Shown here: piece after piece, positions 12,576 through 33,272 of the stretch
Numbering within the stretch: position 1 is the first letter of the stretch
How the letters are laid out: each line of letters begins with the position of its first letter
Origin: Favolaschia claudopus
Lineage: Eukaryota > Basidiomycota > Agaricomycetes > Agaricales > Mycenaceae
Direction of reading: 5' to 3'
NCBI GenBank assembly: GCA_037176885.1
Contig: JAWWNJ010000012.1
Span: 868,001-932,000 of the forward strand
DNA length: 64,000 nucleotides
Translations under genes and position numbers: made by a program
Notes under the pieces: model-generated
What the model was told of the DNA's origin: nothing
Databases searched by the model: none
What the model saw: only the letters and a program-made list of their open reading frames with translations

Positions 12576-12821
12576 TGTAGTGAAATATGGGGGGAAAAGT
12601 AGATAGATTCATACGAAGTACATGCCCGTATTTATACCCCCAGGAGAACAATAGAACAAATACATATAAACCTATACGACGCGTTGACTCGTTCAACTGC
12701 GCACCTTCCTGACTCCCTTCCTGACTCCCTACCGACTCGATATCTTGACTCGAGTATGACTCGACTCATCTTCCGCAGTCTTGCTGGGCTGACTCGTCTC
12801 GTCCAGTTTCCCATCTCGACA
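12576..12821 (-). repeat. copia 3' LTR
   Basis: 246 bp, TGTAGTGAAATATGG to CATCTCGACA on the plus strand, apparently identical to 37,070-37,315. The polypurine tract GAGGGGGAG (minus strand, 12,822-12,830) lies directly beside it, as needed for plus-strand priming. Confidence 0.92.
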
Positions 12822-12828
12822 CTCCCCC

Positions 12829-13332
12829 TCAGACCGGCAAGACCCCTAGTTCCCTCGTGAATCTTTCGTGCTTGGGCCTCGCAAGTGGCTTGGTGAATAT
12901 GTCGGCGATCTGGTCGTCCGTAGCGCAGTAGATAGGTTCGATTGTGCCGTTTTCGATCTTTTCGCGAATGAAATGATTTTGGACGTCGAAATGTTTCGAG
13001 CGAGCGTGGTATTGAGGGTCTCTTGCTAGCGCCAGCGCCGCTTGATTATCCTCGTGGATTACCGTAGGTCCCTCCTGACCGTATCCCATCTCGTCCAACA
13101 AATAACGGCTCCAAACGGCAAATCTCGTTGCGTGTGCAAGCGCCGTATATTCCGCTTCAGTTGATGAAGTTGCGACTGTCGTCTGCTTCTTCGAACTCCA
13201 CGCGTAAGCGGCCCCTCCTAGCATAAATGAATATCCAGAGATTGATTTGCGGTCGTCTGGATTGGCTGCGTAGTCGGCGTCGCTGTAAGCTGTAGAAACA
13301 ACGGTGCGTTCGTTTATGTCGCCATAGACAAG
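12829..13332 (-). pseudogene. copia polyprotein C-terminal part: RNase H
   Basis: The frame contains the copia RNase H signature SDADYAANPDDRKSISGY, then SSKKQTTVATSSTEAEYTAL, HEDNQAALALARDP, KHFDVQNHFIREK and DIFTKPLARPKHE, with stop at the polypurine tract. It begins at codons LVYGDINERT, exactly where the other polyprotein piece (33,266-36,983) ends in RNYGLV. Joining the two at the AGACAAG duplication leaves one uninterrupted frame, so these are two halves of one gene cut by the nested element, not independent fragments. Confidence 0.92.
13326..13332. repeat. Target-site duplication of the giant element, left (AGACAAG)
   Basis: AGACAAG at 13,326-13,332 is repeated at 33,266-33,272. Deleting one copy plus 13,333-33,265 rejoins the copia coding sequence in frame (N-Y-G-L-V-Y-G-D), which proves these are the true insertion borders. 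The next bases differ on both sides (T versus C before, C versus T after), so the exact duplication is 7 bp. Confidence 0.92.
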
Positions 13333-13676
13333 CACCCCTGGTGCTAGTACTTAGGCTAACGACTTGAACCTAGACAGAGATACCTTTGCCTATAACCACG
13401 ACGCTAGCCAAAGTTGGCTGCGTTCATTCACGAAAGTCTACGCACCTTGGCCAGGACCGCGGACCTCAGTCTATGTGCAGCACAACATTTCCCCCTCCCT
13501 CCAAGGCACGAGCAACCCTTCTGTTTTGCTTTGTTTCCTTGTCCTTGAGCAATCACCTTTCAGTGCAAATCACAATCGCTTTCGGGCAGATCACTCGTAT
13601 TGTATCCTAATGTAGAAATATTGCAATTTTACACCGATTCGACTCGAAACAGATCAATAAGTCTCTGATTTTACAA
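13333..13676. other. Left subterminal region of the giant element
   Basis: 344 bp between the left terminus and the stop codon of the transposase gene. No gene was seen. It should contain the left transposase-binding sites. Confidence 0.5.
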
Positions 13677-16600
13677 CTATTCGACCCCAAACAGATCATC
13701 AAGTCCCACGGACTCTTCCTCTGCCAACAGACGTTGGGCAACGGTCACAGCCGGAACATTCCATTTATTGCGGAAGAACTCGGCCAGCCTATCATGCCAT
13801 CCCGCCTCTTTCAAAGCATATGCCCTCATCCCTGCCAAAGTCTCTAGCGCCAAGTCTTCACGCAGTCCCACACGCCTCCTCCACCATTCAGCTTGCCAGC
13901 CTAGGTATCTCAAAACCCGTCTCATCTCTTCCCTTAATAGCATAACCTCTTCGCTCCAGCGTGTCTTCCTCGCCAGCGACCTTGACCATTCGACGCGGAC
14001 GGCTTTGGAAAAGATCAGTGTTTGATGCCAACAGTCAAAAAAAGTGCATGTGCTTACATTCATGCATCATTTCCTCGTCTAGCGACCCGGGAGCGGTCCA
14101 TATCCAAGACATGACTCGTTTGGACGTTCCCGGCGCATTGCGAGGCGCTCGGGCGCCCCGTCCAGCCCCGAGCATTGCAAGTTTCTTCCTAGCTGCCGAG
14201 TCAGATTCTTCGGCATCGCCGTCGAGTTGCACGTCGTCGGGATTCAGAGGTCGTAAGTGGGGATAAGCGTCGGCTCCTTTGAGAGCTACCAATGCCGTAC
14301 GTCCTTGACGATATCGCTCCGCGTAAGCTTCCACGCGGTCGCCTACTTCCCCGATGAGAGTACGAGCCTTCGTGCTGCGTACTTGACCGATAATATTAGA
14401 ATTGCGAAAGCTTATAAGGTGGCGTTTGGCGTGCAGACGAGCGCGTAGAGAGGCTAGAGAGTTTTCACATTGCGCCAGTCGTAGCTTAGCCTCCATATCA
14501 GTAAGTCCGGGAATACATCCATTGAGCGGATCAGTTGTTTGATGTATCATTGCGCTTGGCATGAACAATTTGACGTTTTCTGCCTTGGGTGGTGGGGCAT
14601 CGAAGTCGCGTTCTGCTTCCACCTGCTCAAGTACAGCGGCGGCTCCTGGCATATATACCTTCTGGAGTGAACGGAATTTCGCTATTTTCACCAAAAGAGC
14701 GTGACGCCACTCTTGGATCTTGTTTTCCTGATCAGCGGCTATCAAGGCAGCAGCACCCTTCAGTTGCGTAAGAATACGTCGTCTGAAGAACGTCAACAGC
14801 TATCAAGAATGAGTTAAGTACGAGCTCTTACTGCGAATCTTCTATTTGAATTCCTGCCACCAAAAATGCGGTTGCGCTGCGTCCATGAAGGGGTGCTGAC
14901 CCGCCCGACAGCGCCTCTTCGTCTTTTCGAACATCTAACCGAACTGCTGCCTCAGTTGGGCAATCTATCGATAATCAAGTGTTAGCTAAGATATCACGCG
15001 CTTTGTAGATAAGATCCGACGAACCGCGGCGGGAGAGAACGTAAGGATTTGGTTTTGTTGAATCAGCCTCCCAGTCCTTGATCATCTTGCGCCAGCTTTC
15101 CTTAACTTCTTTCTCGATAGTCTTAGATACATCTTTGAACGCTGCAACCTGACGGTCGCGTTCCGCGATAGCCACCAAAAGTCTTCGTTCTAAAGTATCT
15201 CCTATCAATAGCGTTAGGTTGTTTTAGTTTATCATCTGGCAAATCAACGCACCCTGCCCTAAATTCTTCAGAAAGTTGTGATCATCGATTTTACTCTCTA
15301 TGGTGTCCGCGCGTACACCCTGTCCCGCATCCTTCGTGGAGAAAGAAGCTCCGTTGAGGCGGGACCAAAACCGCTCGACCCCTTCACCATCTGATCTCCC
15401 CACGCCACGCTTAAAACTCAAGCTATTATCGTTCTGACAGTCTTCATTATGGGAAGCAGCGTGCCAGACAGGCAATCCAAATTGAATCTTGATGTCGTCG
15501 AGAGGTAGACGGATTTCCGCGGGGAGGTCTTTGACGCGTTCGTGGAAATGTTGCTTCCACTGGCAGCCGATGTCATACGATATCGTGAGCCACAATAGCG
15601 AGAAGCCGGCCAAAGCGGCCAAAACAATGAAATCCATGTTGGAATACCTTCGAAATCCAAATCGCATAAGCTATATAGACCGAGTCGCCGCTTATAATGA
15701 CATACCGTTCTCCTTTCTGGAGATCGCCGATACCATTGGGTCGCATGCACTCATGACGAGCGCACACACATCCTCCGACCCCCGAAACTCGCAGACCCGT
15801 GGTCAGACGAGTATCTTTCTGTAGGAGAGCCGCAAAGGCGATACAGGTGCTGACCTACGAAGAGTACTTAGGGTAAATTACAAATGATAAGTATAGAGAA
15901 TGAAGAAATACGAACCTCTTTCTCGTTAACATACTTTTTCAGATGCTCTCGGTAACTGCCCGGTTCAACAAAGTAACCCCAACCGGGCCCCAGGGTAGGA
16001 TCTTCGATTTCGTTCACTCGAATGCGATTGCGCAGCCGAAAATTGGCGTCGACCGCAAGTATGAGCATATATAAGAATCTACAGGTGAACCTAGTCAACA
16101 TCTTTGAGACGACGATCAAGCTTGAAACTCAACTGATATTTGGGATCAACTTCCCGCCAACCATCAGGCAGATTGCGTCCGTCCTGGGGACAGGCCCAAC
16201 ACCTAACCGCACATTCCCCCAGGGCAGTGCCTTCGGGACCCCTCGGATCATGTCCCCGTCCCGCTCGTTTGAGACGTGAGAGAAAGGACCACTGTCGGGA
16301 AACACGCGAAAATTGCTTATATCGATCCTATTACGCAGCCATTTTTTGATTTAGATCACAGGAATTGCAGTCAAAGCTGAACTAACCGGTAACCAGGTCA
16401 TTCCAGAAGTCGCCGTTGTATCCGTCATGCGCTCGACGGAAGTCATAAAATCTCGAACATTTAAATTCCCCACCACACTGTAGAGTCGGTACATCTCTAA
16501 ACTGCGAAATGTTGCGCAAGTTCCGGGATCTGTAACGGTTGCTGGATACCAGCCGTTACGTAGCAGTTGCTCGAGGTTGTCGGCTTGATCTGATTTAGAG

Positions 16601-17398
16601 CATTTGCAGTACCGCACGCGGATTTCATGGATCGTTGGGTCCTCGATAACGGTGAGGGAGTGGACGGTGGTATCGGGGAAGGAACAGTTGAAGCCTCCGT
16701 GGCCGAGCTGGTAAATGAGACCGATCTTTGCCAGGGTACACGGAACCCAATAATCACCATTCCATTCCTTCCAATTTCCCGTCAGATTCACGTAATCAAA
16801 ACTTCAAATCTTCGCACCTTAATAACATGCAGCGGGGTTCGAGCGTGATTCGCGATGCAACAAGCAAGACACTGTAAGAATTGACCACACTCATAACATT
16901 TGAAGAGTCGAACAGGGGGTATCGCTCGAGGATTGAATGGGGACGTGCAGTGTGCACAGCGAGGATTTTCCGTGTCGTCTCCCAGACCTTCATGCCGCAG
17001 CAGCTCAGCAAGAAAGTCTCCCATGAGCGGACGCCACAATGCCATAGGATTTTTCTGCAATCATCATGAGCACCAATCTCAATTCACATTCCGCAAGAAC
17101 CACGCACCGTACTGAGATATGTCTTTCGTTTACCCAGATTGCTATCCGACTGCGGCGCTCGCGCCTCCTCTTCGTCGAAATTGTCGTCAGGCACCGGTAT
17201 CCAGTGGGCAAGCTGATCTTCAAGGCTGGAAGGATCAAGACGGCGCTTCTTGTGGGACACGTTGAGCAGTTCCTCTTTTCGACGCTCGCCGTCATAAGAA
17301 AGATAGATGCCACGATCAGCAATCCGAGTGAACTCAGCACCTCCGTAGTCATCGTCGACATCCACCTTACTTTTCTTGCGCAGAGCCCGTTGAATCAT
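13677..17398 (-). CDS. KDZ transposase with CxC2 cysteine cluster (1056 aa)
   Basis: Eleven exons join in phase: 17398-17108, 17054-16818, 16767-16387, 16327-16134, 16078-15916, 15854-15706, 15647-15253, 15201-15025, 14964-14832, 14782-14058, 14002-13677. Residues ~97-345 form the CxC2-like cluster (CAHC, CYECGQFLQCLACC, YQLGHGG, YCKC, GECAVRCWACPQDGRNLPDGW). The catalytic RNase-H-like core follows: GDLQKGERYSNMDF, YDIGCQ (~D497), FGLPVWHAASHNEDCQ, GVGRSDGEGVERFWSRLN, DHNFLKNLGQG. The C-terminal ~450 residues are the usual KDZ helical region (RDCPTEAAVR, SATAFLVAGIQIEDSQ, SWIWTAPGSL). No frameshift or stop appears. It acts in the nucleus to cut and move the element; the length is normal for the family. 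Confidence 0.95.
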
Positions 17399-17677
17399 AA
17401 GCTTAGAGAACTGGAGAAGCGCGCGGGAATTAGAAAGGGAATGAAGGGGAAGTTTGTTGTCGAGCGAAGAAGATGGCTCAGGTTTTATAGGGTGAGATCA
17501 GGTGTTTCAGGCGTCAAGAGTTTCCTCCATGCAGTGAGGTAGAATTTTTGAATATTCAGACACGAATACAGACATAATTCGTCGAAAAAGTCGGTGAAGG
17601 CAAGAGGAAAGAGTGTGACGGTGACTGATTAGATCAAGTAACAATGACGTATCGCCTAACGCGACTTCTCAGGTACT
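17399..17677. other. Spacer between RING gene and KDZ transposase
   Basis: About 280 bp between the stop of the RING gene and the start of the transposase, both on the minus strand. Presumably the transposase promoter; no motif identified. Confidence 0.4.
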
Positions 17678-18264
17678 CTACTCAACATCTCGCGCGTCGC
17701 CCTCAGAATCATCGGTCTCTTTCTCAGCCTTCTTTAACTCCACTGGAAACTTCAAACCCTTCCAACTATATTCAACGACACTGGAATCCTTCCAATCCGG
17801 ATAACTAGCCGCAAGAGAAGCCTCTTCACCCCAATGTCGGAACGGGGGACGATGCATGGGCGTGACACAGTCGGGGCAAGTCCAGCGACGTTCCAGCCAT
17901 AGGCGAATGCAAACGTAACAATGACTATGTCCGCAAGAGTAACTTCCAACCCAAAATCAGTCGGTATTCACGAAATCATTCAGTATAGCACGTACGACAC
18001 CGGATGAGACTTGACTGAATGACAGATGTTGCATTTGTGGTGTTCCTTACGGGGGACTTGGTCGGTAGGTCCTTTTCCGCCCACCCACAAATCTTCGTGG
18101 ACCAGAGGCTGAACGCCCGATTGCCGCCAGCCGAACACTTCAATTACGGTGGGTCCGCTGTTTACTTCTTGTGTCTCCTCCTGGCGGCGAATTGATTCTC
18201 TACGGCGTCTAATCACATTGTGCTGGACGCTGACACGATAAGCAACAGCGACACGAGTAGCCAC
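17678..18264 (-). CDS. RING-finger protein next to the KDZ transposase (at least 177 aa)
   Basis: Two exons are certain (18264-17996, 17942-17678), joined through a GTACGT...AAG intron. The joined frame has a C3HC4 RING: HHKCNICHSVKSHPVSYSCG, then CGHSHCYVC and WTCPDC, preceded by a basic RRRRESIRR helix. RING fingers of this type usually bind E2 enzymes as ubiquitin ligases. Codons upstream of an acceptor at about 18,268 (KENAPPTLVGESSAHASRRE, minus strand, to ~18,440) look coding and probably form one more 5' exon, so the true start is not fixed. Same strand and next to the transposase, suggesting it belongs to the mobile element core. Confidence 0.78.
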
Positions 18265-18440
18265 GACCGCTATGATGTTGCTGACTCAATCTAAATCACC
18301 AATCACGATTTATAGGACTTACGCCGCCTATTCTCCCGTCTAGAAGCGTGAGCGCTCGACTCTCCAACCAGTGTTGGTGGGGCATTCTCCTTCCCGTACA
18401 AAATTCTGCGCTTATTGAGAGAGGTAGCCAGTGTATCACT

Positions 18441-19512
18441 ATGGGTCAGTTTAGTTTCCCCCATCAGAAGTGGTTGTCTCTCGTCCGTACTAAATATCAG
18501 GTCCGTGAGTCGGTCTCAATTTTTGAAACCCCGCTGAAGCTGAATTCGTAGGTCGATTTTTCTCTCGGCACCTCTACTCTTCACCAGTCACCATGTGCAC
18601 GGAGTCATCTGAAATCTACCCATATTGCTTTGGTTGATTGCAAAACCAGATGGATCTCGCCGGTATCTTCCGTTCTCTACCAAAAAAAATCTGTTCCTGG
18701 CACCATTGACGAACTTTGGAAGGAATATGAGGTCTAGACCTGTGCACATGCGCAGAAATCGGAAGTTCGGTACTATCCCTAGGTACCACATCAATACCAA
18801 CAGCTTTGCGACGCAATGGAACGGGTAAACGAAGCCGCGACCGGCCGCCGCCAAGGTCACTCCGCGCGCGCTGCATGTCTCGACGCTGACGCGTCCGCAG
18901 GTCTCCGACATTTACTCAGTCTGTTTCTAGGGAAGATATTGGGGCTTGTTCTGTGGGTTTGTCGCATTGCTATGCTGGCTGATCGAGGCTCACATGGTAT
19001 CGGCAAGAATCCCGCAGACAATCATTCCGCGAACTTTGGTTTTTACGGCGATCCTATCTGCCGCATCAATTTATAGATCTTTTGGGTTGGTAATCCACCG
19101 CTCACCGAGCTTCCGGAACGACTGACATTATCACAGGTGCTTTTTTGCGGTAGGTTTCCAAGGGATCTTCGTGATTCAAGCTTACCACCCTTCCAAGCGA
19201 GGTTTTTTTTCTTGCTATACCAGAAGGGTTAGTCTATCGACGTGAGATTGTTGGGAAGAGGGTTCCATGCGTCAGGTCCTTTCGGGGATGAACCCAGCCA
19301 AGCCGTTGGCTCGGAGAGGTAAACTTTATTTTGTACTTTTCTTTCTGAAGCGAGACGCTCATTCGTTCAAATACCCAGAGCTCCCCCTTCTACCTCTCTT
19401 CCATTCGCTCAGAAATCTCTGCGGATACTCTTGTCCTCTCAAAAAAACAACTCGCCTCGCCCTCAGCGTTTTTTACTCTTCCCCCAAACCCTCCAAAACA
19501 ATACTCGCACCC
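18441..19512. other. Divergent intergenic region RING / gene E
   Basis: About 1 kb between two divergently transcribed genes. Open frames here are short and show no family features. A pyrimidine-rich stretch (about 19,380-19,510: ctcccccttctacctctcttcc, then cccccaaaccctcc) precedes the ATG of gene E and is typical of fungal promoters. Confidence 0.45.
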
Positions 19513-22500
19513 ATGGAGCATTACCGTCGCACTCGTTCCTCCCTTACATTCACCTTCGTCCGTGAAGCCCTCGCGTTGCCAATTCGCAGCCAAGCCGTCA
19601 CTCTACTGCGTCACCGCCTCGTCAATCGCAACTGGGAGATCATCAACGACGAATTCAAAAATAAGGCGTATCGGGGCGAGGCAAGTTATCATTTCTCTGT
19701 ATATTCTACTTGACATTTCTAATCTATGGTTATGTAGATGACTCCACAGGACTATGCCGCCTATCTCGCCACGATGCCTGACGAAGACGAGCGCGTCGTG
19801 GAGAGCGAAGACCCTCCTTCACCAACTTCAAGGTTGATGTATGAGCTTTTTGATGCTCCGCTCACTCCTGAACCCTCCCCTGAACCCGCCGACCCCGGCT
19901 CGTTGTCCGAGATCTTCCGTGCGTCTGCCACCCCTCACCCCACTGATGCTGGTGATGCCGACGACCGTTCGACCTTCCATCCCCCTGCCGATATCGACAT
20001 GGAACCCGGCTCCCCCGCCTCCATCACTACATCCGAGCTCTTGCTTTCGGATCAAGACTTCGAGATCGATCCCAACTTGCAGAGGCGGCTCGGCTTGTCA
20101 ATGGGACTCCGTCGCAAACTTCCCCGTGTCAAATTGTTTCGCGATGATGATTCTGACATGGATGAAGTGGATGAGATTGAGTCGAGTTCCCCCGGTACGC
20201 CTCCTCAAACCGCTATTTCTGCCCCCCACCCGATCCCTGTCACACCTCTGCGCCTTGCACAAGGTAGTGAGGTCGACGGGCTCGACTCTGAGGCTCCCGC
20301 TCGCCGCCCCTTCGCACGCGTTCGTTCTCAGACCAGCATCGACCTCGAAAATTGCATGTCCAGCCCTCTGGCATCTCCTCCCGGCCCCGATGACAGCTTT
20401 CAGAGCTCGTCCGTGCCCTCCCTTGGATCCCCCTTTGCATTCACGACACCGACTCATTCCTCCGGCAGCGGCGGGCCGGTCACGCCCCCATCACCGACGG
20501 AGGAAATCTTCGATATCAAGGCGCGTGTTTACGTAAACGGCGTCGAAGAGCTGTCGCCGGCTACCCCGGATCCCTTGTTCCAGAACATTCTGAACTTCAC
20601 CGGATTCTCCGAGTTCCGTGCGTTCCGTAGGCCCGTTTTCCACGACTCTCCCATCGCCCCGCCTCGACCTTCCAGCCCCGCCGGCTCCGACTTCGCTTCG
20701 GGGAGCGCCGCGATTCGACCCCCGAGCCCCATGCGCGACTTGGATCAGAGCCCCCCCGCTGCTGTCCGACACTCCAGTCCCACCGTCTCCGATTTCGAAT
20801 GCGGCAACCCAGTACCCCGACGTCGTTACTTCACATACTCTAGGGCGGACCGGCGGCGATGGCTCAAGGAACAGACGGAACGCGACGCTGTGGAGGCGGC
20901 ACTACTCACGGTGGATACTGCCGAGCTGATTGATCAAGATATGGATGATGTCGAGGAAGAAAGCGAGGATGAGTCAATGGAGGATGAGGCGGATTCGGAT
21001 TCGGGTTCGGATATGGCTATTTCGGACTCGGATATGGCAGTCCTGCCCGTCGAGGCGGTTTTTGTACCGTATGATGACCTTCTCAAGTAAGTTATCAGCT
21101 GGTTTCTCTTTACTTGGCGCTCATGAACATCTTTAGTCCGCTCGGTCTTCCCCGACCGCTTGTTGACAGCCAAACCCGTGTCTTGGGGCTCCTTTCTCAT
21201 GGGCCAAGAGGTCTTTTCGAACTGTGGGCAGACACCATCGTCGACGCTGGCAGAGGCTGCAATCGTCTCTCGTACCATGGCGATTTCGGTCATCTGGGTC
21301 ATTTGTCGCCCTATACGCCGTTTGGCATCTGGCACGGAGTTCCCGGCGTCGTACGATAATTTCACATCTTCTTATCAACCGCCTCGTTTACCTTCATTCC
21401 CAGAAACCTTTTGAATTACTGAAACCGAAGAAGCGCGTCAGGGCGATTCAAAACGGCGAGGTAAGTTTCAATTACTAGATTGTCATGTTCTATCACTAAT
21501 GATCTCCGCGTCCAGACCGCCGCCAACGGCGCTTCTAGCTCAGCTCAGCCCGCCCAGACCGACGCTTCCAACGCGCCCGAGGTGAGTTGACTCAGTGTTT
21601 TGTTGGCTCATTACCTAATTCCCATTGTTTGCACACAGTCCGCACAGACCGCCAGTTCCAACTTGACCGAGGTAAGTTATGAGATTATCTCTATGTTCTA
21701 CCGTTCTCAATTCTACGTTTCCTACTTTCACAGCCTGCGGCCAACACCGCAGCTATGCCCACCCAACCCGGCGCTTCCAACGCGGCCGCTGTGAGTATTG
21801 ATATCTCGTGGCTTTGCGTCACATATTTAATTCTTCCATCTAGCCGCCTGTTACGCAGGAGGACAACTCGTCCCCTGATGTGGTAAGCCAGCCTTGATCC
21901 GCACCATTCCTTTCTAATAACACTTGCCGTCAGGGGATTCACCAAATCGCTCTTGGCGGACCCGGCATCGTCGAAGCTCAACAGGTTCTTTCCAGTCCCT
22001 CGTTCAAACTGATGTCCGACTTTCAAAACCGTGAGTTCTTGTTGTTTTTACTGCGCACACGATTTTAACGATACCTCAGATATGTTTCAGCGGTGTGCTC
22101 CAATGGCTTATGCGCACGCCGAGGCGAAAATCAATCAGCTGGTGGCCACCGGCATCGTCTTGCCGGCGTTCCCTGGTTCGGTCTTCACCACAACCCACCT
22201 CGACTTCGCCTGCAAGGACTCCGTCCCCCAGCTGAACCGCGACGCTGCGCTGGGGTCGATGGAGGCGATCACTTTCTTGGGCAAATACACCGGAGGTCGC
22301 GTGAAACTCAACGAGGACGGGACTGAGTTTGAGGCCCCTCCTGGCACCACCATTGTCTTCCTCAGCCGCACCCAATCATTTACCCTCTCTCCCCTCGCCA
22401 AAAACGAACGTCGCTATCTCTTCCGCCAATTTTGCAGCGCGGGAGTTCATCGTTGGGTTGAGAAAGGTGGCCACACAGACGCAGAATTCACCACGGTGGC

Positions 22501-22600
22501 GTCCCTTGAAGAGCACGCGCAATGGCTGAAGAAAACTCTGGACCGCGGCACAGATACTTTGAAATTGATTAGCAAGTTGGACGACCTTTTTGTTGTGTAA
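19513..22600 (+). CDS. E: large protein with a degenerate TET/JBP-like C-terminal domain (866 aa)
   Basis: Ten exons join in phase: 19513-19680, 19738-21086, 21137-21350, 21404-21460, 21516-21581, 21640-21672, 21734-21790, 21844-21882, 21934-22030, 22080-22600. Intron 1 has a GC donor. The N-terminal ~520 residues are Pro/Ser/Asp-rich and probably disordered, ending in an acidic run. A conserved-looking patch follows (SHGPRGLFELWADTIVDAGR), then KPKKRVR and an Ala/Thr/Ser/Gln linker in five tiny exons. The last ~200 residues (LPAFPGSVFTTTH, SMEAITFLGKYTGGRVKL, EAPPGTTIVFLS, ERRYLFRQFCSAGVHRWVEKG) match the pattern of the fungal TET/JBP 2OG-Fe(II) dioxygenase relatives known to travel with KDZ transposons. 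The expected HxD is NRD, and the distal His before the ERRY motif is not visible, so I infer a non-catalytic derivative. Confidence 0.75.
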
Positions 22601-22852
22601 AAATTTATCGTATATCGTATATTGTGTCGCTGTAGTAGCGCTTATTGATGTTGAAATTATGGCGACGAAAAATATACTTGAATTATAAACTCCAAGGCTG
22701 TTTTTTTGTTGAGATTTGACTCATTTCTCCGACCCGACGGAATGCAACCGACACTCGTATCATTCTGATTCTACATTCGACTCATGACTACGGGGCCTGA
22801 TGCCCAATCTCTCTTTCTTTCTACTTCCACCACACCCCGCGCACGAGAAACC
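22601..22852. promoter_or_regulatory. 3' flank of E and promoter of F
   Basis: AT-rich 3' flank (attgtgtcgctg, aatatacttgaatta) followed by a pyrimidine-rich stretch (ctctctttctttctacttcc) just before the ATG of gene F. Confidence 0.35.
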
Positions 22853-23380
22853 ATGCCTCCGAAAAGATCTCGTGCGTTAGTTATGCTACACCAGAGAAGT
22901 GAACACGCTGACCTTTACTAGTGCGCCCGTATAAACGCCCTGTGCGAATCCTTGCTTCCACCCAACGTCGCAGAGTCGCTGCACGAGAGCCGGCGCCTGT
23001 GCCGCCGGAGGCCTGGAACCCAGTTATTGAAGCACGTTGGCAGGAATTCGCAAATGAACTGCGCGAGGTGGTGCAGCAACAGATGGAGACAGCATTGGAG
23101 TAAGTTTCCTAGAAAAAGCTCAAGATATTACCGTTGAAATTTAATGTACAGGAAACCTCCCTTGTCAACGGCTGAAAAGGAGGCATTGGCCAAAACTGAC
23201 GCTGAGTTGAAACGAGACCTAGAACTCTTGGAGGAAGACTTGGCAAAAACGATGGAAGACGCTCCTCTGCAGCAGCGGCATGAATGGCTTGAAAATATTC
23301 GTGAGTCCGAGGAATGGGAGCGGAAAAATGGGCATTGGCCGGCACCGGAGACGGAGTCACAGTCTTCCGCTGATTACTAG
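22853..23380 (+). CDS. F: small basic/acidic coiled-coil protein (141 aa)
   Basis: Three exons (22853-22871, 22922-23099, 23152-23380) join in phase through introns of 50 and 52 nt. The first 30 residues are strongly basic (RPYKRPVRI, TQRRRVAAR) and could bind nucleic acid or direct nuclear import. Residues ~45-125 are charged and helical with heptad-like spacing (ARWQEFANELREVVQQQME, KRDLELLEEDLAKTME). Trp-containing EWERKNGHWPAP near the end. I do not recognise the family. It follows E on the same strand with a 250-bp gap. Confidence 0.65.
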
Positions 23381-23645
23381 TATGATACGGTTTCATGTGC
23401 CATCAGTAAATGTCAGTTAAAATGGTAGATGATTTGCGAACCTGTGATACGCACACCCCAGAAACCTTTCCGAATGCCTGTCCCTATGAGTGAGTAATTT
23501 TCGTCGAGTAGAGTTTCCGCTTACTGTGAAAGATTTTATCAGGCTCAATTATCCTTGAATATTCCTACAGTTGTCCTTCATTGTACTCGTCCACGATGTA
23601 AGATTGTCGCTGCTCTCAACGAATTGTGCGCTCACCTAAGACAGG

Positions 23646-23819
23646 ATGGATACGAGCTTCCGATTGAATTCCCTAGTCAACCAAATCACGCGTACCGAGT
23701 CAACCGACCTCATGGACTCAGAGACATTCGATGACCTTCCAGATTTAGTGGCGGAGAATGATGAGGGACCTTGCTGTTGCATGTGTGCTGTGATGCCGAG
23801 TGTCAAAGCCAAACTGTAG
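23646..23819 (+). CDS. Possible small Cys-containing peptide gene (terminal exon)
   Basis: A 57-codon frame ends in a cysteine cluster (EGPCCCMCAVMPSVKAKL). Acceptor-like sequences stand upstream (cttgaatattcctacag at about 23,556-23,572), and another overlapping frame (CKIVAALNELCAHLRQDGYE) is also open there, so the region probably holds the 3' part of a small spliced gene. I cannot decide the frame. Weak. Confidence 0.25.
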   Translation: MDTSFRLNSLVNQITRTESTDLMDSETFDDLPDLVAENDEGPCCCMCAVMPSVKAKL

Positions 23820-23966
23820 ATTTTCGACACAGTTGCGAGGGTGGAAAGGCATTGAATACAAATCTAGCTACGAAAAAAGGAATTGTGGATACTGGAAAGC
23901 AATGTGATAGCAAGGAATATAGCGAGCGGAAGATGGCGAAAGAGGGGAAAGGGTGGAATTCACGTA

Positions 23967-24778
23967 TCAACTGTCCTCACTACCATCATCATCTTCGCCC
24001 CCGATCAAGTCGTCGTCCATGAGCTCGTCCTCCCCAAGATTGCAGCCGTAGTCCTCGAAATCTTCATGGTCACTCACGTATTCCTCCTTGGCGCGCCTCT
24101 TGGCCTGGGCGTTTCGACGCCGCTCTTGTTTCCCTTTGAGGTAGTCTTGCAGCGCGTCGTGACCGTGAATCGACTCGTATGTACTATATTCGCGCTCGTG
24201 AGGCCAAACCGAAACAGAGAAAATAAACACGCACTTTAATCGTCGATTATAATCCAACAGCCGCAACAATGCACGATTTCTAAGGCCGAAACATTGAGTC
24301 ATGCGGAATGTATGTGGTTGGTGGTGACTCACCTTGATCGATAACGCGCTTGGTACTGGCGCTCCCGTTCAGCAGCAGCGACCACAACATCGGGCTCCCG
24401 TGTCTTGAGAGCGGCGCGTCTCCTGTATGCAGTAAACTAAGAGCGGAAGGCGGTATTTAATTTAGAAATGAAACTTACCTTGCCATGCGTAACCGAGCCT
24501 TCTCATTCCGGTCGAGATGTCTCTGAAGACTGACAGACGAAGTCAGGGGGAGGAGAATTATCAGCTATGATGGAGGGCACACACAGAATATGATACTCGG
24601 TCTCCCAGGCAGCATTGAATCTCGACTTCATGGGCGGGGCAAACGCCGTAGGAGGCAGGATGGTCGAAGACGAGTCATTTGCCGCAGTAAAGGGGGCAGG
24701 CGAAGGCGACATTCTCCTCAGTTGACCCGTCGCCATTGCCATTGCAAGCAGTTTGTGTCTAGTCTTGTCTTTCATCAT
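23967..24778 (-). CDS. H: basic coiled-coil protein of unknown function
   Basis: Start MMKDKTRHKLLAMAMATG at 24,778. Exon 1 ends near 24,590. A short exon RHLDRNEKARLRMAR (about 24,535-24,480) follows, then an exon ending at about 24,335 with RRRAALKTREPDVVV and ERERQYQARYRSR. The last part has NRALLRLLDYNRRLK, YSTYESIHGHDALQDYLKGK, KQERRRNAQAKRRAKEEY and a very acidic tail (EDELMDDDLIGGEDDDGSEDS). The pattern of Arg-rich helices with an acidic end recalls bZIP-like basic segments common in Agaricomycete mobile-element neighbourhoods, but I cannot name a domain. Exact splice sites of the first intron are ambiguous. It is convergent with F. Confidence 0.55.
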
Positions 24779-25817
24779 TAAGAGAGAGTCGCGCGGAGTA
24801 CAGTAGGAGAGAGTTGCGAGAGAGTCGCGAGGAGATGGTGGTAATACAATAGAAAGCGTGACGAAAAGTAACATCAAAATAACACGTACTTGCCCGACAG
24901 CACGGATCAGAGCTTCGTCGGTGATAGCCCTTTGGGCTAGCCGGTTAGCCGGTTAGCCAGGCGATGAAGAGGCCAAAATAGAGGGTTGAAGTTGGCCAGA
25001 TTGAGGACCTCAGAAATAATTTGGAATAGCGCAACGCGAAGCCAATGACATAACGAGGCTATTAAAGCACTTTGAACCAGAAAATTGCGCAAAATGAAAA
25101 ATCGTCGAAACACAAAATAGTCGGAAAGACACTCAAGGTTTCAGTACGATACTTGAAACAACGTTCAAAATCGACTTTCTAGCAAGTTCTCACCCTTGGA
25201 AAATCGAAAAATTCATAAGAAATCAAGAAGGTCCGTTTTGTTGGATATTTTTTGATATTCAAGACGTACAAGGAGCACTCGAACCTGTGTAATATATGTG
25301 CCGTTGACCTGAGGCCAACGTCGAGGTACAGAAATCTTTTCGGTCATCTCGGACTCTAGCAAGCTTTCCATTTCTAGCAAGTTCGCATTGAATGAAATGC
25401 ATTTGATAGGATGGAGGAACGAGGAGGGGGAATGACGGCAAGAATTTTTCCCTGAAGATTGAGAGCATGCAGACCTATTGCAATGAAATCGAATTTGAGC
25501 TGTTAGACACAAAATGGGGCTATACGAAGCAAAACTATGGGAGCCGCATTTCTAGCAAGTTCTCATTTGGCCAAAAATGGCTGCATTTCCCACATCCAGC
25601 ACCGCTGAAAACACTCAACGAAGACATAAGCGCCGGAGTCTGCGCTTCAAAACTACATAAGCGCCCAAAGGGACCGCCCGGCAAATGCTTAAGCGCCGAA
25701 ATAGGCAGAGAGTTCAGAGTCTCGAGTACGAAACGGGATCGCAGGAAAGAAACAAAATCAACATGTCTATATTCAGACTGCTGGTATAGAATTGACTACA
25801 AACGCATCGATCTTTAT
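24779..25817. other. No confident gene
   Basis: AT-richer stretch inside the giant element with two copies of gccggttagcc at about 24,940-24,960 and repeated tctagcaagttc motifs (about 25,178, 25,374 and 25,551). The last motif hints at a degraded local repeat. Open frames lack splice partners or domains. Confidence 0.4.
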
Positions 25818-26784
25818 TTACGGAGTATAAACTGGAGCTAAACTAGAAACAATACCCTTCGCAACTGCTGCTGTATACATCGACAACGCTTCCTCTTTTG
25901 TAGGAAATGATTTGTAGAGAGCGGCGGAGATTCCCAGTGTGTTAAGCTGACACTCCAAACTGAAAGCGAAAGATGAGAAAAATCAAACAAGAGGTAAATT
26001 GAAACTTACAGAGAGCGATACACACCAGGCGCCACACCTCGGTATACGACGAACCAAATATCGAGGTCTTCGGTTCCGTGGAGCGGATTCAATTCGTTGA
26101 CTTCGACGTCGGAAATTGAGGTAATTGGGGTGGGAAGCTGAGGGATAGTGCGCAAGGGGCCGGGTATCACTCGGGTCCAGCCGCGCTGCTGAGCGTAAGA
26201 AAACGCCGCTTCAGCTGCTGCGACTGTCAAGTATCCGCGATATATGTTGTGCTTGATACGATTAACGAGAGAGTGAGTGTGGGGCCTATCCAGAAAGTCT
26301 ACGTCAGCAGTTCAACAGGATGGAAGGCAAAGTTACGTACCACGATGTAAAAACCCCGCATTCCCGACCTGCGAAAACTACGTACGCAGCTTTCTTGTAT
26401 TGCGGCTTCCTAGGGCTCCGCTGAATTGCACAAACACTCGAGTCGTCGACACCTTGCGTCGCCGCCCCTGCCTCCCCCCTGTAAGAAGATGAGTTTTTGC
26501 CGACGAGCAAATGAGAAAAAATGAAATAACCAATCCGGCGTTACCCCGCTCTGAGTGGGAGAGTCGTATCGATAAAGAGCGGGGGAGGTTGGAACGATTG
26601 CGGCAGCCGGCCTTGTCCGAGGAGCGGTATTGGGAGGGTTAAGCTGCACAGGCTGATATGGGGGAGGTGGAGTACGAGGCGGAGACGGAACACGGGCCAC
26701 AGTGTTTACAGAATTGAGATCCAGATTTGCGATGAGTTGGAGAAAAGCCTCATCGTCGTATTCGTCGACTGTGTTGCTCGCCAT
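25818..26784 (-). CDS. C: protein with two RNase H1 N-terminal-like domains (269 aa or longer)
   Basis: Four exons (26784-26531, 26478-26341, 26285-26010, 25959-25818) join in phase. The N-terminus is acidic, then Pro-rich (PSPPRTPPPPYQP). Domain 1 is AAYVVFAGRECGVFTSW, then NIYRGYLTVAAAEAAFSYA. Domain 2 is IWFVVYRGVAPGVYRS, then ALYKSFPTKEEALSMY. Both show the hallmark aromatic-V-V-x-x-G-x-x-x-G-V/I-Y/F and the Y-K/R-G/S-F/Y-x-T helix start of the RNase H1 hybrid-binding module. No RNase H catalytic domain is present. Frames upstream of 26,784 stay open (MDFKALLLSVINVLVCCSFT) and further coding-like blocks reach ~27,220, so there may be extra 5' exons. Confidence 0.72.
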
Positions 26785-27729
26785 TATCTGAGCGAGCAGA
26801 GGAAGAAAGCGAGGGTCCTGGGTAAAGGAACAGCACACAAGGACATTGATCACCGAAAGGAGAAGGGCTTTGAAGTCCATAGATGCGATTGGCCGGAGAG
26901 ATGCCAAGAAGTAATGCGCCACAAAAAACCTGAAAGATTAGCGGAACTGGATCATCTTTGCATGACTCACTAGAGGCCTAGGTTGCGATGTATTCTTCTG
27001 AAAAGGGTATGTGACTCAACGTTGGCAACAGAACGTGTCGACAGGAACCCGCCGGAACCCAGAGGAACTCTAGTAGACATACGAATTGGGATGAATCAAT
27101 CACCTTTCGGATATTGGTGTGGGTTCTGGCAGTAGGAAGAGCCGAACGGAACCGACGATTGACTCGAGTTGAGATTGCATCAGCCAAAGTTCGCAAACCA
27201 AGCACCTGAACAGAATGATAGAATCATGATTTTCGACCCCCTGTGATTCAGAACTGCATGGCTCACATGTATCGAAAGAGGTAACTGGCATGAATGAGTC
27301 ACATTGACTCAACAACGACTTGATACGCCCCATAGAAATCAGGTTCTTCACGGGGAGAATTGGCCGCAGTGTCCAGGAATGACTCACTTGAAAGAAAAAC
27401 GGTACGGGAACGCTGTTGTTGAGTCATGCAGAGAGTCGAGATTGGAAGATCGTTATCAAGCCCATACAAAATTTCCTAAATGAGAAGTGACTTCCAACAT
27501 TCGGCGCCGGCTAATCGATTACACCGGATTAGGATAAGGATAATTTTCGTATTCAATCATTTCCAAGGAACAGAAAGCATGTTGTATTGTTGAAACTCAA
27601 AAAATTACATGGCAGACGACTACGCGACAACAGACTCAACCGACGGAAGATTTACTCGGTGTTTGACCGAACTGAGATGCAAATGAGAAAGGTTACCTAC
27701 AAACGCAACGAGGAAAACTCACTCATTGG
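26785..27729 (-). other. Probable 5' exons of C, then intergenic
   Basis: On the minus strand, TRVNRRFRSALPTARTHTNI (27,100-27,205) ends at a donor-like GTGATT. The block HYFLASLRPIASMDFKALLL at 26,840-26,920 also looks coding and runs into gene C without a stop. I could not phase the junctions. 27,400-27,720 shows no gene. Confidence 0.35.
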
Positions 27730-28539
27730 TTAGACTACGACGGCTACCTGGTGGAAGTCGAGAAACTCGTTGAAGGCGTTAAGAGCGAGAATCTGGGTCT
27801 TGAAAGATTTCATGCGGCCGCCCGAAACTCCGACCGTCGCAGCGAGTGCCAAGCCCTGACTGAGAACAACTCCCACAAACTTGCCCTTTGAGATGCACCA
27901 CCAGAGAGGGGGGTCTTCGCCTTCCGCGACGGGTGGGTCGGGAATGGCGGCGAGGTGCTGAGGCGGAATAACGATATACACCCCTCCGACAACATACGGA
28001 CCGCTAGTACGAAGACCTGCCGCAACGAGGGCAGGCGGAACGACGGGGAGGACCGCGGGGAGAGCCGGGCCAAGACCCGGGGTGGGCGAGACGATGACAG
28101 GAGCCGAAGGCGTCGCAGAAGCCGCAGTGGCAGTTGGCGCAGCAACGGGAGCGGGATCAGTTGACCCAGCGACAAGGGCTGCAGAATAATCAGATGAAGA
28201 TCTGCGTTATGGAGGGGGAAAACGCACTCGGACTGAAGGATGTTATAGCATCGAGAACAGTCTGAAACGCTGACACGGTCTCGGCTGTACCATATCAACA
28301 ACATGTCAATGCAAAGAGCGAGAGAATAACTTACTATCTGCACTGGACAGATCGAAAGACCGCATCGCGTTCAGCACCGTCTGGAATGCAGCGGCAATGC
28401 CAGCTGTGAATGAGAATTCAGTTCAGAGGAAAGCAGAATAAGAATGCAGGCACATACCATCGAACTCAACAGGGGAAGACGGCGCCTCTGAAACAGAAAT
28501 CTCTGTTCCATAGGAGGTCAAGCTGCTGAAGTCGTTCAT
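27730..28539 (-). CDS. A2: RNase H1 N-terminal-like domain protein (218 aa)
   Basis: Four exons (28539-28458, 28403-28335, 28284-28228, 28178-27730) join in phase to 219 codons. Two short exons encode similar amphipathic helices (AFQTVLNAMRSFD and AFQTVLDAITSFS), an apparent exon duplication. A Pro/Ala/Val-rich linker is followed by LRTSGP...VYIVIPPQ and the RNase H1 N-terminal-like block WWCISKGKFVGVVLSQG, then MKSFKTQILALNAFNEFL. It is a paralogue of A1 and stands in the same divergent position relative to its B gene. A nucleic-acid-binding role, perhaps for RNA-DNA hybrids, is inferred from the domain. Confidence 0.78.
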
Positions 28540-28874
28540 GGCGGTTGGAAAGAGAGAGGCGAATGGAGACCAGATATGTTGAGAGACCTTTTAAACCAAG
28601 AATTAGAACTCCGATTTTGGCACTGATGCGAAAGAACGCATGCTGAACGATATACGGGGCAGAGATCCCTGAGATCTGGAGATCTCAGATCTCATGGTCA
28701 GGCTGCGAATCAAAGAAACAAAGAGCCGACCAAACTGGCGGCAACAAAGCAGGCGAACTTACGGAAAACGCCCGCAGTCTTCTTCCCCCCACGTTAAGAG
28801 TTGATACAGCTCGCATAGTATTGGTGAGATACAAGCAGAAAGACCGTCGCAGAGGCTAAACCGAGACTCCAGTT
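28540..28874. promoter_or_regulatory. Shared divergent promoter region A2/B2
   Basis: 335 bp between the two ATGs. It includes a palindromic gagatct/agatctc cluster near 28,668-28,692 (gagatccctgagatctggagatctcagatctc) that could be a regulatory site. Nothing equivalent was noticed in the A1/B1 spacer. Confidence 0.4.
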
Positions 28875-31461
28875 ATGGCAAAGAATAAAAAACGTGTGCG
28901 CCAGCGAGTACCAAAGGAAAATCGAAAGAATTTGCGGCTATGGGCAGAGGGTGCTCGCGAGACAGTCTTAGCTCCCCATCTGGACGCATACCAGATTGCT
29001 CTTGATCAAGGTCGTCGGCAGGAGAGAAAATTATTAAAAAAGATTTGTCGAGAGTTTCATGCGAGAGTTGACTGGAGAACCAAAGACCATGAAGAGCCGA
29101 TGCTGAGTGAGTGGGACCCGGCCGGGATCGCGACCGAAGAAGATCTGTCGGAGGAGGACGAGGCGGCGAAAAGGACACGTATCGAGGAGCTAAACAAGGC
29201 AAGTCACACCGTCACGCGTTCCACTCCCACGCTCATGTCTTCTTACTGTTCAGCGCATTCGTCGATGGTTTATGTATCGTCTCAAGAAATCTCGTAAAAA
29301 CCAACGCTTGGGGAAGGAGTTAGATGCAAGAAAAGACCCTTACGCTGTTTTAATGGCCAATCTCTCCGGCGTGACTGCCCCTCCGAAAGCGCTACAAGCC
29401 TATCAACAGTTTATGCGGGAGTCGTATGAGGAGAAAGTTGCCCCTGTTGTAGCGGAGAGATGGGAGCTTGAGCGGAACGATAACAGCAAGCTATCTGAGC
29501 GCACCAAGGAGCCTAAGGCCGGATTTCGAGCGGTAGTTGCTCGTGAGGTTTTTGCTCAGCTGTCGGACGAGGAACGAACGGCCATTGCGGATCGCGCCAA
29601 GAAGGAGGCTGCGGAGGCAAAGGCTGAGTATTTGAAGGCGCTCAAGAGTCCTCCCTCGAAATCCCCAGAGGCACGTCAACGGTACGTTGTCAGCTTTTGG
29701 TTACCCCTTCAAAAACTAATGTTTTTCAGATGTATTGACAACGTTGCGGATTTCGCAGGGCCCATTCTTCAGGGTCTCTCCGCAAACACAGGTCTCCATG
29801 CGACACTGATAATGGGTGGACCGATGCCTGAGTTCGGAGGTGAGATCCGTACGCTTCAGTAAGTTGACACGACACTTTTTCTTCCGTTACGAATCATTCA
29901 TGTTATACCAGTGTTTCCTATGGACGAAATCACACTGTGCTAGGGCCGCACTGGCCGCAGTGGGATAAGCCTCGATTTTCGGAAGTCACAAAATTCATGA
30001 CGGAGTATCTCCATACCGCCTACAGTGAGTGTCGTTTCGGATGCCTTCACAATGCCCTAACCTCTACAAGCCCCCCAAGAATGCGCACAAGCTGCTCTAA
30101 ATCAGGCTCCTGACCTGTCTGGAGCCAACTACACAATCGATAGGGAGCAGTCGGAGTCATCCGACTCTGACTCGTCCGATTCTGATTCTTCGGACACGGA
30201 CTCCGACTCTGATTCCGAGGCCGAGGAAGACGCTGAGGAACAGAGACGCGTTCGGAAGAAGAGGAAGACGAAAAAAGACAGCGGAAACTCTGAGAATAAA
30301 GCTCCAGGTGAGTCGATACAAATTTACATAGTAATTTTCAACTGAGCCAACGGCGCTACAGCCTACCCGTTTATAACTGAGGAAGAGCGCCAGCAGAACA
30401 TTCGCCGCAATGAAGCTCTGCTGCAACAACTCAAAGCAGATGTTGCGCCGGATCTCAACGCGATGAAGGCCAGCATGCAAAATAAGTCATCCGCCAAGTC
30501 CGTCAAACGCACCACCAAGCCGCTCACCCAAACGACTCGTGAAACACGATCATCAGCGGCAAACAAAGTTCCCCCCGTCCTGCAGGAAGAGTCTTTGCCC
30601 CCCGCTACCTCCACCGCGCACACCGCTACTCAGAACTCTGTGTTGGTACCGCCATCAGCCTTGACCGACGAAGTCCGCGTCGTCCCTGACAACCATCCCG
30701 TAAATGCGCAGACTGTCATCGAGACTGCGTCGGCGTCGGTACCGCCATCACTCCCGCCCAACAGCTCCCCTGACAACCAATCCAATGCCGGATCCGTTGA
30801 GCCCGTTGCTCATGACTCACCTTCTGACTCACCCGCTGTCCCACCTCTGTCGCAAGCAGCTCATTCCGCTCTCACAACTATCACAACTCCGTCTCAGCCG
30901 ACGGTTCTTCCCAGTGCCTCTTCCGCATATCCTGTCTGCCCTCCTCAAGCTGCAAAATGGTTTGCGGAGGCGCATGCCTCGATGACGAAAGTCGACCTCG
31001 GCTGCCACTACCATGCACTAATCGCCGCATGGACAAGGCTAGAAGTGGCGTCACGGTTTGAAAACAGCCCGACGAATCTCACCGCCAAACTTCGGCCGAA
31101 ACCGGTGACACTCTGGATTTCACGCAACCGCCGGACAGAGCCGATTGTGGAGGATCCCGCTGAATATGCCCGTCAATGGCAATCATGGTGGGATTCTCTG
31201 CAACCGTCTTGGCGGACGAAGGGTGCCGACGACCGATGGATTGCTGGGAATACCTACGGTGGCGGCGGAAGGGAATGGGGCGCTCTGTATCACTGGGGTG
31301 TCAACGGTATGCTGAGTGTTGTTGCTTCATTGTATTTTTGGGGTCGTGCAATCGATTCAAAACAGGAATTTATTATTACATGGGAAACCGCGGTACAGGA
31401 TGTTGTTTGGATGTTCGAGGGGATGGCCATGTACTATGAAATGTTCAAAGGAAAATTCTAG
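28875..31461 (+). CDS. B2: large nuclear-looking protein, paralogue of B1 (776 aa)
   Basis: Six exons (28875-29198, 29254-29681, 29730-29858, 29912-30024, 30071-30307, 30362-31461) join in phase to 777 codons. Intron 1 starts with GC (GCAAGT...CAG). The same blocks as B1 appear in order: KENRKNLRLWAEGARE, YQQFMRESYEEKVAP, KEPKAGFRAVVAREVFAQL, GLHATLIMGGPMPEFGG, an acidic Ser/Asp run, RRVRKKRKTKK (nuclear signal), a Ser/Thr/Pro-rich disordered part, and the Trp-rich C-terminal module (HALIAAWTRLEVASRF, REWGALYHWGVNG, YYEMFKGKF). Exon 3 has exactly the same length (129 nt) as in B1, and introns 1-4 occupy the same positions. B1 has no intron matching intron 5. Confidence 0.85.
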
Positions 31462-31868
31462 CCATCTTGACTTGTATTTATTATATTTACAAATGCACCG
31501 CAAATCTGTTTACAAAAATTTTTGAGCCTAATATCTTGAATCTATCGAGACCTTGTACGAGACCGTCGGTTGATATTGAGCAATGAGTTCAATGAAAATG
31601 ACTTGAAGTCAATGTAAAGGTGGGATCCGACATTGTTGAAGTGGTCGGTAGCAAATCACAGAAGGCATTGTTAGTACTGTATCCTAAAGCATGATTCAGT
31701 GAGTCAGCGAAAGTGAGATAGGCAGAGTTAGAGTAAAAATGACTCACACAAATTGCTGTAAGGCTGGTCGCACTTTCTCATCTAGCAGCGGATAGGTTTT
31801 GAAAACCCAAACAAATCTGTATTTGGCGTGGAAGGCGGGAAATCCAACTTCTTCTGATACGTGAAGCA
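31462..31868. other. 3' flank of B2
   Basis: AT-rich spacer without a recognisable gene between B2 and the 72-bp repeat. Confidence 0.4.
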
Positions 31869-32180
31869 ATGGGGCAGGGCGATGGTGGGGAGGAGTTGAG
31901 AATCAAGCGTAAACACGCTGCTGCTGATGAGGGAGCAGAGCCGACGCGGCGCGGTGGGGCAGACGAGTTGAGAATCATGCGTAAACGCGCTGCTGCTGAT
32001 GAGGGAGAAGATCCGACGCGGCGCGGTGGGGCAGACGAGTTGAGAATCATGCGTAAACGCGCTGCTGCTGATGAGGGAGAAGATCCGACGGAGGAATGTC
32101 GTTTCAAAAGCCCACGAAGCAGGAGGGCGGCGCCGCTTCGGCGTACAGAACGATCAGATGAGGGTGACGCCGTGATTTGA
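31869..32180 (+). CDS. Possible 103-aa repeat peptide over the 72-bp array
   Basis: An ATG at 31,869 opens a frame that runs through the whole 72-bp array and stops after it. The array encodes a 24-residue unit (ELRI-K/M-RK-H/R-AAADEG-A/E-E/D-PTRRGGAD) two and a half times, then a basic tail (RFKSPRSRRAAPLRR). Mixed charge, no known domain. It could equally be a non-coding minisatellite that happens to be open because the unit is a multiple of three. Confidence 0.3.
   Translation: MGQGDGGEELRIKRKHAAADEGAEPTRRGGADELRIMRKRAAADEGEDPTRRGGADELRIMRKRAAADEGEDPTEECRFKSPRSRRAAPLRRTERSDEGDAVI
31893..32090 (+). repeat. 72-bp tandem repeat (about 2.7 copies)
   Basis: Units begin at 31,893, 31,965 and 32,037, each gagttgagaatca followed by gcgtaaacrcgctgctgctg and gatgagggag. 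Copies 2 and 3 are nearly identical, so the array is young. It lies ~1.2 kb from the right end of the giant element. Confidence 0.88.
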
Positions 32181-32318
32181 TGGGGGCTGTGTCCTGGTGG
32201 GCAACTGATGGATAACTCAACCATTTCAGGTTACGTCTCGAAAATGCGAAAAATCTTTGAATCTAGACAAGCGCTGTTGCAGATCTGGACGGCGCTGTGG
32301 CGGGCAAGAGTCAAAAAA

Positions 32319-32790
32319 CGCGCTGATTCGCTTTTGCCGAGGGAGGAGGGTGGGATAGTGGCCGGGGAATGCCGATTCGGAAGCCCGAAGTGTGAGGGCG
32401 GGGCTGGGTGGGGGGAAGGAACCAAAAATCACGCGGCGATTCGCTTTTGTCGAGGGAGGAGGGTGGGATAGTGGCCGGGGAATGCCGATTCGGAAGCCCG
32501 AAGGGTGAGGGCGGGGTGGCGGGGAAAACCCGAAAAATCACGCGCTGATGCGCTTTTACCGAGGAGGGTGAGATACTGGCCGGGGAATGCCGATTCGGAA
32601 GCCCGAACGGTGAGGGCGGGGTGGCGGGGAAGGAACCAAAAATCACGCGGCGATTCGCTTTTACCAAGGGAGGAGGGTGGGATAGTGGCCGGGGAATGCC
32701 GATTCGGAAGCCCGAAGGGTGAGGGCGGGGTGGCGGGGAAAACCCGAAAAATCACGCGCCGATGCGCTTTTACCGAGAACGGGAAGAAAC
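32319..32790 (+). repeat. ~109-bp minisatellite (about 4.4 copies)
   Basis: Units start at about 32,319, 32,432, 32,541, 32,646 and 32,755, with the core ggccggggaatgccgattcg followed by gaagcccgaa and an alternating cgcggcgattcg or cgcgctgatgcg segment. Adjacent units differ mostly in two alternating forms, suggesting higher-order duplication. It sits 0.5-0.95 kb from the right terminus of the giant element. Confidence 0.88.
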
Positions 32791-33265
32791 GGAAGCAAAA
32801 TGCGGGTTTACTAGGGTGGATGATGGGGAATTAAGGGGTGGGATGTTTGGTGGAGAATGCCGTTGCCAAGGCGCGAGGGCGGTCGATGCCAAGCCGGTGG
32901 TTCCAAAGAGCGGGCGGATGTGGGCGAAACGGAATGGGTATCGATGTCGGGGGTCGTGAGATAAAACTCGGTGACTGCCGTGAAGAAATCAAAAAGAATC
33001 GTATACGCATTTGGTTCGATGAGTACCAGTAACCGATCCATCAATATCCGGTACCATCAGTATTGACCAAACGCAAATGCTGGCAAATTTTGGTGGCGAA
33101 AGATTTTGCACCGGAGATCACAGGGCAAACAGACACAAAGGTACGCATTTGGGTCCCCAGGGAGTACATGAGGCTACCCAATGACTTGGCTGGGTGCGTG
33201 GTTTTTGAAACTGTATCCTACGGCTACGTCCGTGTATTTTAGTTTATATATTAGAGCTAGGGCTC
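32791..33265. other. Right subterminal region of the giant element
   Basis: No gene. It ends in tttatatattagagctagggctc directly before the right AGACAAG. It should contain the right transposase-binding sites. Confidence 0.5.
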
Positions 33266-33272
33266 AGACAAG
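33266..33272. repeat. Target-site duplication of the giant element, right (AGACAAG)
   Basis: Second copy of the 7-bp duplication; see 13,326-13,332. Just inside the element the base triplet tca supplies the stop codon that now ends the truncated copia frame. Confidence 0.92.

Follow-up and report, generated by a model that had tools for sequence, protein, structure and literature searches.

The founding paper on KDZ transposons is said to be that of Iyer et al. in 2014, and in fungi the role of moving host genes is, to our knowledge, mainly known from Starships in Ascomycota. In a 64,000-nucleotide stretch of the genome of Favolaschia claudopus, a mushroom of the Mycenaceae (assembly GCA_037176885.1, contig JAWWNJ010000012.1, here C12, positions 868,001 to 932,000; hereafter the window), we identified a block of ~20 kb which, with very little doubt, is a giant Kyakuja-like DNA transposon of the KDZ superfamily, present in full length, recently moved, probably autonomous and equipped with its own conserved genes. 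The TET-bearing Kyakuja of Agaricomycetes, as described by Kojima 2025, make 7-bp target duplications and have a TET/JBP-type gene linked to the KDZ transposase (PMC12730594). The Favolaschia element shares these two traits with them, as well as the 5' CA end and the Agaricomycetes host, but it ends in CA..TC with an imperfect 17-bp terminal inverted repeat (TIR), whereas two Laccaria Kyakuja families are reported with CA..TG ends and no TIR (PMC12730594). It also differs in a TET-like protein without a conserved iron-ligand His and in the presence of further core genes, the comparison being with Kyakuja as described in that publication (PMC12730594). We file it as KDZ, Kyakuja-like, because of these CA..TC ends with an imperfect inverted repeat.

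For algae, giant KDZ elements have been published: those of Ectocarpus and Chlamydomonas are reported to reach 30.3 kb, with nested insertions and additional genes, and a 31.7-kb element was observed moving in Chlamydomonas (PMC12477816). The Favolaschia element resembles them in size, nested insertions and additional genes and differs from them in that their hosts are algae (PMC12477816). In the basidiomycete Cryptococcus neoformans, the proven mobile KDZ1 likewise unites a CxC-type domain with a KDZ transposase, but it is about 11 kb long, with 241-bp TIRs, an 8-bp duplication and CxC1 instead of CxC2 (PMC12810828); in Pleurotus, CxC2 is reported ahead of intact KDZ genes (PMC7641404). Starships, the giant fungal transposons of Pezizomycotina, also move many genes, but they are described as using a tyrosine recombinase, carrying genuine cargo and reaching about 700 kb (PMC12134995), in contrast to the KDZ transposase of the Favolaschia element. 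A six-frame Pfam scan over the element (E <= 0.01, introns ignored) recovered no tyrosine recombinase family, and a Starship-type recombinase was rejected on this basis.

The element lies within a copia element and both its ends could be placed exactly:

13333..33265, minus strand (that of the transposase gene): giant KDZ element, complete, 19,933 bp, its borders sharply set by comparison with 12 uninterrupted copia copies
13326..13332: AGACAAG, left target site duplication
33266..33272: AGACAAG, right target site duplication
13333..13349, plus strand: left terminus CACCCCTGGTGCTAGTA, with ~80-98 bp kept between copies
33249..33265, minus strand: right terminus ...CTAGGGCTC, with ~44-94 bp kept between copies
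33273..37007, minus strand: 5' part of the host copia, from gag to reverse transcriptase
12829..13325, minus strand: host copia 3' part, presumably the RNase H end by its motifs (no Pfam match at E <= 0.01)
12576..12821, minus strand: host copia long terminal repeat (LTR), 246 bp, same sequence as 37070-37315
37070..37315, minus strand: host copia LTR, other copy

To define the borders, we searched two probes of 901 bases each, one over the left and one over the right border, in the whole genome (264.6 Mb, 460 contigs). Outside the window, the left probe had 14 matches over its copia half, 12 of them extending to query base 333 (the exceptions, on contigs C113 and C99, end at bases 302 and 125), and in those 12 copia copies the match to the right probe begins at base 567. 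Left and right matches overlap by exactly 7 bp in all 12 copies, each of which represents an empty site. The interrupted copia is itself complete at both ends, with 100% identical 246-bp LTRs and AATTG at 12571-12575 and 37316-37320. The insertion is younger than this copia, itself young. The original prediction of a single clean insertion with exact borders and AGACAAG at both edges was therefore borne out by the 12 uninterrupted copies; its further claim, that excising the block with one AGACAAG restores the copia frame, holds by phase arithmetic, the reading phase carrying on across the block when a single AGACAAG is retained.

The same ends recur elsewhere in the genome. The termini of the window copy form the imperfect inverted repeat with 11 of 17 positions matching, and 11-12 matches were found in the 10 elements compared. 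Pairing left and right ends by eye, and adding a second element of the window, we obtained 17 spans with common ends of 19.1-50.0 kb, 12 of them of 19.1-22.2 kb and five of 31-50 kb; these counts from the end search are minimum values. In all 17, a KDZ match occurs immediately inward of the left end (39 match rows overall); 16 are flanked by perfect 7-bp target duplications, in 16 distinct sequences that reveal no obvious site preference. Seven of the spans (C42, C28b, C178, C10, C6, C132 and C126) were read at their ends only. Several copies at different sites are almost identical: C12b and C47, with different duplications, share 99.2-99.7% identity (three blocks of more than 400 bp), C83 and C26 99.8-99.9%, and C11a is 99.0-100% identical to C83/C26 in the compared blocks (4.8 kb of C11a fell outside the comparison). 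The predicted movement of the block as a unit, and recently, is confirmed because such copies, full-length and with matching ends, occupy different sites with 99-100% identity in aligned blocks; the search for other same-ended copies that had been suggested as a check yielded 16 further spans. Identity between family members can be patchy, as between C83 and C11b or between the window copy and C28a, which on the left are 98.7% identical over 5.7 kb (the first 98 bases without a difference) and on the right 83.5% over the main 1.6-kb block with tandem repeats (12.7 kb of C28a outside the comparison).

Some ends gave a less regular picture. C178 (153810-186434), the sole span without a matching 7-bp duplication, has its ends 32.6 kb apart and could represent a rearranged element or a pair of partial ones. 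Besides two inner ends on C11, 14 left and 5 right ends remained unpaired. Two left ends, C104:30108 and C26:1639158, have the same 15 flanking bases, pointing to a duplicated segment or two assembly haplotypes; TCTGCAG follows two right ends, C103:434011 and C74:614654, with otherwise different flanks, either by chance or through a target preference or a duplication. Near the right end of the window element, positions 31874-32790 hold two tandem-repeat arrays with units of 72 bp and ~105-113 bp, where C28a, read in part, aligns in several shifted pieces.

Within its borders the window copy contains the following genes:

13677..17398, minus strand: transposase gene, 11 exons, 1,033 amino acids, CxC2 (PF18803) and KDZ (PF18758), splice-aware model
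17681..18285, minus strand: conserved RING-finger-like open frames, either a small gene of their own or upstream transposase exons
19513..22600, plus strand: TET/JBP-like protein P0084, 872 amino acids, start hand-counted from the open frame, weak Pfam match
25818..26784, minus strand: protein with RNase H1 N-terminal (Cauli_VI, PF01693) domains
27730..28460, minus strand: second small conserved protein, without Pfam match, like the RNase H1-type family by eye only
28860..31461, plus strand: P0001, 772 amino acids from an approximate start, containing a predicted HMG box, an acidic stretch and, at the C-terminus, a conserved helical domain
29374..29652, plus strand: predicted HMG-box region of P0001

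The transposase model matches the entire KDZ profile (PF18758, positions 1-217, E 1.1e-43), preceded by CxC2 (PF18803, E 5.5e-30). It includes LAVDANF, YDIGCQW and GEGVERFW, putatively the catalytic D-D-E motifs. When the model was carried over to eight other copies, GT-AG was kept at eight of the ten introns in all of them, with breaks (due to the model or to the alignment) at the fourth intron in four copies and at the sixth in seven. In this crude liftover, length changes break the frame of the window model in C28a, C174, C83, C26, C58 and C11b; in C12b and C47 the frame is preserved, with two stops. Since these alignments are unrefined, we claim an open transposase for the window copy only.

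The other genes behave as a constant part of the element. Their coding segments are colinear and in the same orientation in the window copy and in eight other elements, which represent five sequence groups (C12b/C47, C174, C58, C83/C26/C11a and C11b). We estimated ratios of nonsynonymous to synonymous substitution (dN/dS) by the Nei-Gojobori method, with no significance test, for the pairs C12b-C174, C83-C11b and C58-C11b; the counts cover alignable parts only, so that the values are biased downwards. Over these three pairs they were 0.09-0.12 for the transposase, 0.18-0.21 for the TET-like protein, 0.09-0.33 for the RNase H1-type protein, 0.13-0.50 for the second small protein (0.50 at a dS of 0.03), 0.08-0.24 for the HMG protein and 0.06-0.29 for the RING-like frames; three remaining copy pairs were mostly saturated, with obtainable values of 0.07-0.35. 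The inner genes look kept by selection. At least 30 homologues of the RNase H1-type protein were found, all from Favolaschia or Mycena by name and many Mycena species among them, and at least 83 of P0001, also named Favolaschia or Mycena (7,997 candidates with the most common words were scored, and the spread may be wider). In Mycena metata, homologues of both occur twice at near-adjacent locus tags (1446458/1446456 and 1483971/1483973), each time on contigs of equal length, which suggests that the linkage of these two genes is older than Favolaschia. The structure model of the whole P0001 protein was poor (predicted template modelling score 0.33), and Foldseek returned no PDB match at E <= 0.001 for this model or for its HMG part.

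The assignment of the TET/JBP-like protein is based on a weak Pfam match, with 3e-5 for the exon (below the cut-off) and 0.16 for the entire protein. An alignment of the last exon from six distinct copies shows no His among its 36 invariant positions, so that the HxD...H iron ligands of an active TET/JBP dioxygenase find no invariant His there. At the place where we would presumably expect the HxD, some 18-20 residues before the GG pair, stands an invariant Asn. Sequence searches of PDB gave no match with P0084 and, with the exon alignment, a sole match to an exonuclease (E 0.88). The protein probably cannot act by oxidation.

The span C11:2490219-2535823, of 45.6 kb, has a different organization. 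It consists of two head-to-tail elements separated by a spacer of 2,968 bp, with the ends in the order left 2535823, right 2512673, spacer, left 2509704, right 2490219. ATGCCGA is common to the outermost flanks and neither element has a duplication of its own. Joined with one ATGCCGA, the outer flanks gave 19 genome matches besides the span's own two; 12 of them cross the joint, seven of these covering at least 745 of 800 bases and two being at 98%. The flanks match as one uninterrupted site and, therefore, the 45.6 kb sit in one target. An aldo/keto reductase gene (PF00248, E 1.9e-47) lies in the spacer, which, over the 2,673 bp searched, matches three other loci in two pieces each, at 86-94%. 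Two elements, a gene between them, a single duplication and an empty site are the features by which a composite transposon is recognized, and composite transposition appears to be the simplest reading of the span. The surrounding region is arranged in the same way as C119:161-213 kb and C67:437-492 kb, an indication of large segmental copies or of haplotypes. With seven of the 17 spans read at their ends, captured host DNA was seen in this composite only. C47 (43 kb), the sole single-element span above 30 kb read fully, exceeds C12b by inserts of 3.0 kb and 20.4 kb, presumably Harbinger-like and Gypsy-like, respectively, the latter with 1.8-kb LTRs that are 98.3% identical; host cargo was rejected as an account of this surplus, which corresponds to nested transposons.

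Several alternatives deserve consideration. As the assembly is a draft in 460 contigs, the copia halves might have been misjoined around an unrelated 20-kb segment. However, both duplications (5 bp for copia, 7 bp for the element) are intact, the copia LTRs are identical, the same ends recur in 16 other spans, and the assembly was reportedly built with Falcon and Arrow (PMC10905254), which we take to mean PacBio reads. A misjoin is very unlikely because of the 12 empty sites and the complete copia ends, to the point that we give it practically no credence, and assembly error was discarded on the evidence of the border probes, the identical LTRs and AATTG. It could also be thought that the inner genes are passengers of the KDZ element, varying between copies in the manner of Starship cargo, given the large size, the several genes of no known transposition role and the five spans that reach 31-50 kb. 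This has very little probability: the same genes follow one another in eight further copies of five sequence groups with dN/dS well below 1, a combination that largely rules out random cargo, and the surplus of C47 is made of what we take to be Harbinger-like and Gypsy-like elements. The inner genes are the element's own core, not cargo, because the colinear set persists, at dN/dS values well under 1, even in copies that have diverged. The original prediction was right about an intact KDZ transposase, whose model is open, and less so about its company: the genes it called cargo are core, and its about eight others come nearer to five conserved genes besides the transposase. Similarly, its view of the block as the Basidiomycota counterpart of a cargo-carrying giant transposon stands as regards a large fungal transposon and fails as regards the rest, the enzyme being of the KDZ type, with no tyrosine recombinase seen, and the inner genes not being cargo.

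The two other alternatives concern parts of the system. The TET/JBP-like protein might be an active 5-methylcytosine dioxygenase and relieve the element of silencing, a role that has been proposed for TET-bearing Kyakuja. AG-type TET genes are reported to be associated with Kyakuja (PMC12730594), and the Favolaschia protein has been retained, with dN/dS about 0.2. Nevertheless, the Pfam score under the cut-off, the lack of an invariant His in six copies and the invariant Asn at the presumed HxD place make this activity improbable. For the C11 span, an origin by gene conversion or recombination, in which a lone resident element exchanged sequence with an element pair elsewhere, retains an appreciable, if minority, probability, as the patchy identity described above suggests exchange between copies. 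It requires, however, a pre-existing element-gene-element array and two crossovers, whereas one composite transposition accounts for the single outer duplication, the absent individual duplications and the empty site.

The window also contains part of another, diverged member of the family, inserted in a NACHT-type gene copy:

1..5371, plus strand: second family member, right part (C12:853536-873371, 19,836 bp, duplication AGAGTTC)

The family right end is recognizable at 5357-5371 with one mismatch (at 3 mismatches the pattern has 3.9 chance matches, and proves nothing alone). Homology to the NACHT-type gene restarts exactly at 5372, the absent part of that gene copy being C12:852,909-853,538, and AGAGTTC precedes CACCCCTAG at the left junction and also directly follows 5371. 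The left part, read for 76 bases, has a KDZ match inside the left end in the search. Three related NACHT/NPHP3-type NTPase gene copies, one of them checked with Pfam, occur in the window (5372-6670, 41473-44010 and 53686-56212); this gene family, which a giant transposon has hit, has many further copies on C12, C4 and C22.

These sequence comparisons allow us to propose how the element may work. The CxC2-KDZ transposase would act at the CACCCC...GGGCTC ends, probably by cut-and-paste chemistry, and insert the element with a 7-bp duplication and no obvious site preference. The HMG-box protein might bend DNA and bring the distant ends together, and the small proteins and the TET-like protein may deal with host silencing. 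As a single left end and a single right end seem to suffice for the enzyme, DNA lying between neighbouring copies could be moved by the pair, with C11 as the one apparent instance of such co-movement. Our broader proposal, which we advance tentatively and with confidence a little short of even, is that the giant KDZ elements of mushrooms resemble bacterial composite transposons: the transposase would take any left end together with any right end, over distances of up to at least 45 kb, aided by the element's own HMG-box protein, neighbouring copies would mobilize host genes (here an aldo/keto reductase), and the catalytically dead TET-like protein would serve as a non-enzymatic factor. Among the literature matches listed, in a search outside of which most subscription papers lie, none was recognizable as a description of KDZ elements with an HMG-box gene or of composite transposition by such elements.

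The conserved accessory set, a TET-like protein without conserved iron ligands and a composite carrying a host gene were all surprising. With them, what had been 'TET genes near KDZ transposases' becomes, in a basidiomycete, a defined 20-kb mobile unit whose ends are exact, whose empty sites are known and whose accessory set is conserved. This unit brings the ideas that accessory proteins with an HMG box and RNase H1 N-terminal domains may belong to the transposition or anti-silencing machinery, that its TET-like protein is probably unable to act by oxidation, and that composite transposition may be a route for the movement of host genes in basidiomycete genomes.

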